64,000 nucleotides of DNA from an uncultured Verrucomicrobiales bacterium (GTDB taxonomy: Bacteria; Verrucomicrobiota; Verrucomicrobiia; Verrucomicrobiales; Akkermansiaceae): contig CALGJQ010000006.1 in assembly GCA_937928545.1 (NCBI GenBank), positions 1 to 64,000 of the forward strand, in the 5' to 3' direction. Made by a program: the position numbers and the translations under genes. The notes below the pieces were generated by a model. It was given only the letters and a program-made list of their open reading frames with translations, was not told where the DNA came from and searched no databases. Positions 4,114 to 45,004 of this stretch are shown in pieces (the first letter of the stretch is position 1; each line of letters opens with the position of its first letter).

Positions 4114-4188
4114 TGGCAGGCCCGCAGGGAGTCGAACCCCGATCTGTGGTACCGGAAACCACTGTTCTATCCATTGAACTACAGGCCC
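4114..4188 (-). tRNA. tRNA-Arg (anticodon CCG)
   Basis: The minus strand folds as a 75-base tRNA with encoded CCA. The acceptor strand GGGCCTG pairs with CGGGCCT (with G-U pairs), the D-arm follows TA at positions 8-9, the anticodon stem GTGGT/ACCAC encloses loop TTCCGGT, and the T-arm is CGGGG-TTCGACT-CCCTG. Anticodon CCG reads the CGG arginine codon. It lies upstream of serS on the same strand. Confidence 0.95.
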
Positions 4189-43150: not shown

Positions 43151-43924
43151 ATGCTCGCTAAGCGGATTATTCCTTGTCTCGATGTCACCAATGGACGTGT
43201 CGTTAAGGGGACCAACTTTGTGAACCTTGTGGATGCTGGGGATCCGGTGGAATCGGCGGTGGCTTATAATGAGCAACAGGCGGATGAGATTGTCTTTTTG
43301 GATATCACGGCATCGAGTGATGGGCGTGATACCATGGTGGATGTGGTGCGGGAGACGGCGGCGCAGTGCTTTGTTCCACTGACGGTGGGCGGGGGGATTC
43401 GGGAGGTGGCGGATATGAGTCGGATGTTGCTCGCGGGAGCGGATAAGGTGGGGGTGAATACGGCGGCGATCGTGCGGCCGGAGGTGGTGGATGAGGGAGC
43501 GAAGGCTTTTGGGAATCAGTGCATTGTGGTGGCGATTGATGCGAAAAAGATCGGGCCCGGGAAGTGGGGAGTTTATACGCATGGGGGACGTAAACCGGTC
43601 GAGGGACTGGATGCGATTCAATGGGCCAAGGAAGTTTACAATCGAGGAGCGGGCGAGATTTTGCTCACGAGCATGGATGCGGATGGGACGAAGGATGGAT
43701 ATGATATCGAGTTGACCCGCGCGGTGAGCGAAGCGGTGGGGATTCCGGTGATTGCGAGTGGGGGAGCGGGGAATTTGGAACACATGGTGGATGTGTTGGA
43801 TGAGGGGAAGGCTGATGCGGTTTTGGCGGCGAGTATTTTTCACTTCGGGCAGCACACCGTGCCGGAGGCGAAGGAGTTTTTTAAGGGGCGGGGGATTCCG
43901 GTGAGGCCGATGGTGGGTGGTTGA
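43151..43924 (+). CDS. hisF: Imidazole glycerol phosphate synthase cyclase subunit
   Basis: A 257-residue TIM barrel that, with HisH, forms imidazole glycerol phosphate and AICAR in histidine synthesis. The catalytic aspartates are in [16 protein letters not shown] (Asp11) and in [10 protein letters not shown]. Phosphate-binding loops VGGGIR and [11 protein letters not shown] are intact, and the PMVGG tail is near the end. No hisH or hisA is adjacent. The gene has no visible Shine-Dalgarno sequence; palindromic copy D lies directly upstream. Confidence 0.97.
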
Positions 43925-44008
43925 GGGGAGATCTCACGCAGAGCAGCGGAGCAGCTGAGGATTTATGGGGCGCGGTTGAGGGGAGGTCTCACGCAGAGGC
44001 GCAGAGGT
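43921..44008. repeat. Two copies of a TCTCACGCAGAG-type dispersed repeat
   Basis: Copy 1 (43921-43952) and copy 2 (43976-44008) both read TTGAGGGGAGRTCTCACGCAGAG followed by GC-rich GCGCAGAGG-like sequence. A third copy is at 50112-50150. They fill most of the gap between hisF and the exosortase-like gene. Confidence 0.75.
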
Positions 44009-44074: not shown

Positions 44075-45004
44075 ATGAAGGAAGAGGTTGGCGATATCAC
44101 TCTGGGTGATCTGAAAAAATGGCCACTTTCGGTGAGGGTGATGATTGGGCTAGGGATGGTCGTGTTTTTTGTGATCTTTGCGTTTTATCCGGCTTATCCA
44201 ATGACCGCTGGAAGATCTTTGGTGGGGTGGACTTGGGCGGCTTGTAATTCATACAATGGTTTTCTCCATGGGCGCTTGGTGCCTTTGATTTTTCCGTGGA
44301 TGATTTGGTGGGCTTGGAGGTGTCGGAAGGAAGAGGTGGTGAAGCCTTCTTACTGGGGTTTGATTTGGGTGTGCTTTGCGCTGATTTTATTTTGGGCCTC
44401 AATGAGGTCGGTTCAGCCGCGATGGGCTTTGTTTGGGATGCCGCTTTTAGTGATTGGGTTGGCGCAGTATTTGTTTGGGGGAAGGATTGCGAAGGCGGTG
44501 GTGTTTCCGGCGTTCTTTCTGTGGTTTGCGATTCCGGTGCCGGGGTTAGAGGCGTTTCTGAGGGGGCAGTGGACCGAAGATGTCATTGAAGTGGCCGTGA
44601 TGGTAGGGGGATGGTGCGGGATGAGCTTGGTGAGGCAAGGTCGCACTGTGATTGAGACAGGCACTGACATACATTTTGCCTTTGGATGAAGTGGTGGAAT
44701 TCGGTTTATCATCTGGACGGTGATGATAGGGGCGTGTGTGGCCTATTTTGGATTGAAGAGTGGCGTTAGACGGGTGTCTTTGCTTGTTGTTTCAATTTCG
44801 CTGATCTTTATCTCGGCGGTTACTCGATTGGTGATGTTGTTTGGTTTAGCAAGTCATGGCAAAGACGAATGGGCAAAGTATCTGTATCACGATTGGATGT
44901 CTGTATTTCAGTTTCTCTTTGTGGTGGGGACAATGTTTGTAATCCGCTGGGTGATACTGAAATGGTGGCCAGTTCGTGTGCCCAGAGCGTCGGGGGGAAT
45001 GTAG
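44075..45004 (+). CDS. Exosortase-like membrane transpeptidase with in-frame UGA at the catalytic-Cys position
   Basis: A 310-codon frame interrupted by a single TGA at codon 205 (44687-44689); the second half stays in exactly the same frame to TAG 45002-45004. The 309 residues form about eight membrane helices with the exosortase outline. AIPVPGLEAFLRG, then MSLVRQGRTVIE, correspond to the segment before the active site. The codon after FAFG is TGA, followed by SGGIRFI, where the family has the nucleophile in A-C-S-G-x-R. The other two conserved catalytic residues follow: Arg251 in SAVTRLVMLFG and His272 in KYLYHDWMSVFQF. A hairpin lies downstream of the TGA. Either UGA encodes selenocysteine or the gene is inactivated by a nonsense mutation at its nucleophile. 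Exosortases cleave and anchor C-terminally tagged exported proteins; no tagged target is in this window. Confidence 0.72.
44705..44730 (+). promoter_or_regulatory. Candidate bacterial SECIS-like hairpin
   Basis: TATCATC (44707-44713) pairs perfectly with GATGATA (44722-44728), extendable by two U-G pairs, around an eight-base loop TGGACGGT. The loop begins 24 bases after the in-frame TGA and has G at its second position. Both fit the known bacterial SECIS pattern. Found by eye; not scored. Confidence 0.45.

Follow-up and report, generated by a model that had tools for sequence, protein, structure and literature searches.

An in-frame UGA at the catalytic-cysteine position of an exosortase-like gene, predicted to be read as selenocysteine

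Should a UGA that lies in frame within an exosortase-like gene, at the position of the catalytic cysteine, be taken as a stop codon, as a defect or as a codon for selenocysteine (Sec)? Exosortases are presumed to sort proteins to the cell surface. The question is raised by a gene in the window, by which we mean the whole 64 000 nt stretch of DNA that was analysed (contig C6 of a draft genome of 3.98 Mb in 75 contigs, 91.75% complete). The first-pass annotation had described a single frame broken once, by a TGA at 44687-44689, and this was borne out, with 309 codons followed by TAG; the context FAFG-TGA-SGGIRF with Arg251 and His272 downstream was also found as described. The features of the locus are as follows.

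44075..45004, plus strand: exosortase-like gene, 309 codons and TAG, with one in-frame TGA; PF09721 is matched by both halves
44243..44245, plus strand: codon of Cys57, invariant when 42 rows, Sec and Cys versions together, are aligned
44687..44689, plus strand: TGA, codon 205, predicted selenocysteine codon; by alignment its column is that of the catalytic Cys of exosortases
44705..44730, plus strand: predicted bacterial SECIS-like hairpin of nine pairs, arms 44705-44713 and 44722-44730, loop UGGACGGU starting 24 nt past the UGA
44825..44827, plus strand: CGA codon of Arg251, the family's catalytic Arg, with Ala three residues upstream where the family has Asn
44888..44890, plus strand: CAC codon of His272, the family's catalytic His, with Ser four residues downstream where the family has Gly

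The two halves of the gene matched PF09721 separately (N-terminal half 42.6 bits, C-terminal half 26.3 bits, cut-off 25.7). The read-through protein was similar to TIGR02602 (E-value 5e-23) with a score of 81.8 bits, which is under the cut-off of 105.55, and exceeded the cut-off of 23 for TIGR04178 with 29 bits. An AlphaFold2 model made with 42 sequences (mean pLDDT 89.8) shows a multi-helix protein, residue 205 being located between a strand (200-202) and a helix (209-226). A Foldseek search of the PDB returned no solved structural relative (best E-value 0.41), so the active-site geometry could not be taken from one.

The read-through protein had a match in 41 of 58 genomes. Loci with in-frame TGA were observed in the window genome (G000) and in four others (G009, G020, G021 and G026), and in all five the TGA occupied the same alignment column, while identity of the four other copies to the window copy was merely 38-61%. 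The locus in G026 was recognised after reading to the end of its contig; the complete TGA genes are those of G000, G020, G021 and G009, and none of these four has another frame break within the match. Two loci, L014 and L032, had been taken from the wrong strand in the alignment of this column and were left uncounted. Cys is also common at the column in relatives, and two further exosortases of the window genome, both free of internal stops, have Cys there (GCSGIRS and PPCSGLQ). No TGA copies beyond the same five were found among the stronger matches listed for 260 genomes of the family (191 matched, with up to nine candidates scored per genome), nor in a sample of the order comprising 386 genomes (45 matched at E-value ≤1e-40, with up to six candidates per genome).

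A database search with the N-terminal half produced 55 proteins. In sixteen of them the last residue is the one just ahead of the column; 28 of the 39 full-length matches have Cys in it, and the rest have Trp (three), Ser (four), a gap beside Ser (two), Ile (one) or Phe (one). Three of the 16 column-ending proteins correspond to the loci of the window, G020 and G026, and the endings of the other 13 are known from protein records alone. The first-pass view that the TGA is placed beyond chance agrees with both observations, the shared column in five of five loci and the 16 database proteins that end exactly there.

The search for sel genes proposed in the first-pass annotation gave a positive answer: selA, selB, selD and tRNA-Sec are all present in the window genome. 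Profile scores, all over cut-off, were 319 bits for selB, 480 bits for selA (a gene searched for in the window genome only) and 381 bits for selD; tRNA-Sec scored 59.2 bits (cut-off 47) and was called by ARAGORN as tRNA-SeC(tca), with anticodon UCA. The selD gene of this genome itself contains one in-frame TGA. Across 30 genomes (27 of the window genus and three others) selB was over cut-off in 26 and selD was found in 25, with in-frame TGA in 24 of the latter. All five genomes with a TGA exosortase have selB, four have selD (G020 being without it) and three have tRNA-Sec; for the other two, G020 and G026, 150 of >1100 first-look tRNA-Sec candidates were scored. In nine selD loci (L050 and L091-L098) the TGA lies within SCGG-TGA-ASK (SCAG in one), and in eight of them one of the three best hairpins had a GUC or GUU loop at 33 nt, the ninth having CGUGC at 32 nt. 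Bacterial selenoproteins such as SelD resemble the window gene in having an in-frame UGA in a Cys column, followed closely by a hairpin (a predicted one in the window gene), and the UGA is also found in SelD of this genus. Two short selA-like pieces (L054 and L055) were seen near the full-length selA on contig C5 of the window genome (11411-11764).

The hairpin that follows the UGA in the window gene has a predicted free energy of -7.6 kcal/mol. Hairpins were also seen in G021 (loop GUU at 25 nt) and G009 (loop UGGAC at 21 nt past the UGA), and these three were rated good; G020 and G026 have in common a weak hairpin of four pairs whose loop, GGUC, lies at 23 nt, and other local hairpins are more stable there. 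The scoring rule, which we take to follow the bacterial SECIS model, was set after the hairpins had been seen and the P-values are therefore indicative. In comparison with synonymous shuffles they were 0.0145 for the window copy, 0.08 for G021, 0.04 for G009, 0.37 for G020 and 0.33 for G026 (0.007 when combined by Fisher's method, in which the G020 and G026 hairpins are not independent), and none of 15 loci of Cys paralogues used in the test (L019 and L020 were among those left out) was at P < 0.05. Other codons of the same gene scored as well in 4 of 288 cases for the window copy, 9 of 272 for G021, 19 of 298 for G009 and 84 of 277 for G020 (Fisher 0.004). When the stems were aligned by codon and compared by eye, one pair appeared as A-U in G000 and G021 and as G-C in G009, in which two lower pairs fail. 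The hairpin had no match in Rfam.

The frame downstream of the UGA remains open for 104 codons in G000, 93 in G020, 94 in G021 and 103 in G009; base shuffles were equally open in 18, 60, 177 and 29 cases per 5000, respectively. Second codon positions in this part were more alike than third positions in all six pairs of copies, barely so for G000 and G020 (46 versus 43%), in protein-based alignments that favour positions 1 and 2. Identity in the TGA clade was 23-40% after the UGA versus 42-57% before it; ten Cys paralogues had the opposite trend, 66-98% after the column versus 47-75% before. As a PF09721 domain, the C-terminal half was over cut-off in the window gene and was matched in G021 (E-value 6e-4), while the Pfam search found no such match in the C-terminal halves of G020 and G009. 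In all five TGA copies the 11th or 12th codon past the UGA is an in-frame Met (Met217 in the window), and aligned Cys paralogues have the same Met. The stretch between the UGA and this Met consists of 10 or 11 whole codons, with one Phe kept in five of five copies. A 99-residue database protein, P0057, starts at the conserved Met and matches PF09721 with E-value 9e-5; it is 80% identical to the post-UGA part in an alignment spanning 89% of that part.

We consider it very probable that the UGA of this exosortase-like gene is read as Sec, as predicted from sequence. The joint statement, that the UGA is read as Sec and that the protein belongs to an exosortase-related family, is probable as well; it does not extend to the nucleophile step. 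Given the Sec genes of the genome and the UGA at the same column in four other genomes, its product is likely to be a membrane protein that contains selenium, a kind unmentioned in the open-licence literature that we searched. The earlier suggestion of a possible selenoprotein has thus gained support, from the sel genes and from a TGA that recurs at one column with an open frame after it. Two of the outcomes that the first-pass annotation had named as refuting, a genome lacking selB/selC and relatives whose frames are disrupted elsewhere in the gene, were looked for and not observed. Points against this reading are the weak hairpins of G020 and G026, the divergent C-terminal halves, the family motif residues missing from the TGA copies, the finding of tRNA-Sec in three and of selD in four of the five TGA genomes, and the Trp, Ser, Ile or Phe that close relatives have in this column.

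Three other ways to account for the UGA have to be weighed against its reading as Sec. The UGA could be a true stop, with a functional N-terminal half of 204 residues and a post-UGA half that is either made separately from Met217 or eroding. Such an arrangement would fit the better conservation of the N-terminal half in the TGA clade, the unusual divergence of the C-terminal half and the Met that all five copies have shortly after the UGA; the 13 further column-ending proteins, known from protein records, could also be accommodated. However, the Cys paralogues, which need no start there, have the same Met, and the stretch before it is kept in whole codons with its Phe. Furthermore, the C-terminal halves are open and coding-like, the site coincides precisely with the column of the nucleophile, and all five codons verified in DNA are TGA, whereas TGA is the stop of two of the 10 other window genes that were checked. 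We regard a true stop as unlikely. Even less likely is that a near-cognate tRNA reads the UGA as Trp or another ordinary residue. Three near relatives do have Trp, by necessity TGG, in this column while both N-x-x-R and H-x-x-x-G are preserved, and Sec-independent suppression of UGA has reportedly been seen in an archaeon; since TGG is one step from TGA, the Trp copies can equally be losses. Against this explanation stand the complete Sec gene set, the hairpin with a G in its loop at SECIS-like spacing and the UGA in selD of the genus. A lone stop in an otherwise intact gene of a draft genome would also be expected from a pseudogene, an assembly error or a chance nonsense mutation, but the same column is affected in five genomes, with copies as diverged as given above, and database ORFs end there too, so that an origin of this kind is very improbable.

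In a tree of the N-terminal halves (73 rows), TGA and column-ending rows fell into several deep lineages outside two large Cys clades and near rows with Trp, Ser, Ile and Phe; three changes between UGA or column-ending and other states were needed. The base of the TGA rows is poorly resolved, with low support, in this tree, from which three copies (P0001, P0003 and P0006), some Cys loci and any row with <90 residues ahead of the column were left out. The Ser codon of G008 (TCA) and the Trp codon TGG are each one base from TGA; the Ser row of G022 has no such simple reading. A clean tie between the Ser codon and loss of Sec genes was looked for and not found: in G008 we observed no match for selB or tRNA-Sec, yet selD with TGA is present, while G022 has selB, tRNA-Sec and selD.

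In P0013, P0014, P0016 and P0048 the catalytic Cys is replaced by Trp (three proteins) or Ile (one), with N-x-x-R and H-x-x-x-G intact. H-x-x-x-G is also intact in L028, P0055, P0035 and P0054, which have Ser at or beside the nucleophile column; the codon in L028 is the TCA mentioned above. L028 is located at 1-604 of contig C115 of G008 and matches in two frames at the contig end; this Ser version may therefore be broken by a frameshift or misassembled.

Passages of PMC1569441 give the invariant motifs of the EpsH family as Cys-x-Gly, Asn-x-x-Arg and His-x-x-x-Gly. The window copy has U-S-G, A-V-T-R and H-D-W-M-S at the three motifs, keeping Arg and His and lacking Asn and the last Gly; because of these missing residues the protein was filed as exosortase-like rather than as an exosortase. 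The extra residue noted earlier within SG-x-R is real: the Arg at +5 is also present in G021 but in none of G009, G020 and G026. The Gly two residues past the TGA is lost in G009, G020, G021 and G026. At the other motifs, HLIR stands in G020 and GVIR in G021, both of which lack the His; in G020 there is a Gly that aligns across a gap, and G009 has neither Arg nor His at the family columns. Counted over the four copies extending to the motifs, the losses are Asn in four, Gly in three, His in three and Arg in one, with His absent from all three testable relatives (G020, G021 and G009). The earlier statement that Arg and His follow in the order and at the spacing of the family holds for the window copy. 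The picture of an ordinary exosortase with Sec swapped in is supported only with qualification, given the degenerate surroundings of the active site, the loss of His in these relatives and a post-UGA half more divergent than in Cys paralogues.

Selenolate needs no base for deprotonation. We propose that the UGA would be recoded by SelB and tRNA-Sec with the aid of the short hairpin 24 nt downstream, and that the protein may be a divergent paralogue of the standard Cys exosortase of the genus. On the outer side of the inner membrane its selenolate would attack a substrate, e.g. a PEP-CTERM-type sorting signal; because the selenolate is already deprotonated, the protein may tolerate losing the family His together with the Asn and Gly that flank the triad. 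In the window genome 65 PEP-CTERM matches were observed at E-value ≤1, none of them over cut-off, and six of 14 control genomes also had matches at this level. The matches suggest that substrates probably exist, though these may serve the Cys exosortases.

A nucleophile in peptide cleavage or transfer is the most likely role for the Sec residue, even if its chance stays somewhat below even, and a redox or binding role comes nearly as likely. Under the latter explanation Sec is present and acts in redox chemistry or in binding of a metal or ligand, in a paralogue that is no longer a peptidase or transpeptidase. The losses of His (in three of the four copies), Arg (one), Asn (four) and Gly (three) would be understandable in such a protein, and prokaryotic selenoprotein families are mostly thought to act in redox reactions (PMC9312934). 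On the other side, Sec, Arg and His of the window copy still stand in the family's order and at its spacing, the UGA occupies the column of the exosortase nucleophile, and a possible redox partner, Cys57, is not specific to the Sec clade. Cys57 had been considered as a Sec-specific partner and was rejected, as it is present in every covering alignment row whatever the nucleophile. We hold loss of peptidase activity to be a serious but not the favoured possibility. Returning to Sec as nucleophile, we tentatively suggest an exosortase-derived family of membrane selenoenzymes with a self-activating selenolate nucleophile and a dispensable His, in which Sec would have a non-redox function in protein sorting; this wider proposal is somewhat doubtful.

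Formate dehydrogenase is an example of a bacterial selenoprotein. The window protein would differ from the known bacterial selenoproteins in that those are thought to be mostly redox proteins, according to PMC9312934. With the exosortase/EpsH proteins (PF09721, TIGR02602) it shares the family match in both halves, the predicted multi-helix fold and an active site in which nucleophile, Arg and His follow in the same order at the same spacing, and its genome has PEP-CTERM matches and two Cys exosortases; unlike them, it has UGA for the invariant Cys, lacks the Asn of N-x-x-R and the Gly of H-x-x-x-G and is under the TIGR02602 cut-off. Archaeosortase ArtA is grouped with exosortases in TIGR04178, the family matched by the read-through protein, but it is archaeal and has a Cys nucleophile. 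For ArtA of Haloferax volcanii, passages of PMC9263693 name Cys173, Arg214 and Arg253 as critical; with Arg253 in this list, the third critical residue need not be His.

The first-pass statement that it knew of no described Sec exosortase agrees with our searches: in the portions of open-licence full text covered we found none, co-mentions of the two terms being incidental (e.g. PMC10133366), and a search for PEP-CTERM with selenocysteine in the same kind of text returned no Sec exosortase either. The word exosortase was absent from the main text of the selenoprotein papers searched for it. If a sortase-like membrane family has Sec as the residue in the place of its nucleophile, either the use of Sec extends to protein sorting or the fold was recruited for selenium chemistry. 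If the reading is right, such genes sit in databases as truncated fragments, as may be the case for the 16 of 55 matches of the N-terminal search. Natural versions of one site with UGA, Cys, Trp and Ser within one family make the reading open to direct tests.

No gene partner was common to all TGA loci in flanks of up to ∼6 kb on each side or to the contig end, the TGA gene of G020 being near such an end. The gene preceding the exosortase-like gene, presumably hisF, is common to G000 and G026. Two other neighbours, one of which we take to be hydrolase-like, are common to G000 and G021, and no shared neighbour lies beside G009 or G020. In the intergenic stretch just upstream of the exosortase-like gene, at 43919-43999 of the window, a short element, ttgaggggag-tctcacgcagag, was seen by eye to occur twice. 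Elsewhere in the window a tRNA gene is located on the minus strand at 4117-4188. In G004, 45 residues encoded on contig C110 (76715-76849) match the beginning of the protein and are possibly a remnant copy. Locus L086 (JALZUO010000164.1), titled as from an Oligoflexales bacterium, encodes an exosortase very like those of the verrucomicrobial family of the window, possibly a case of misnaming or mis-binning.
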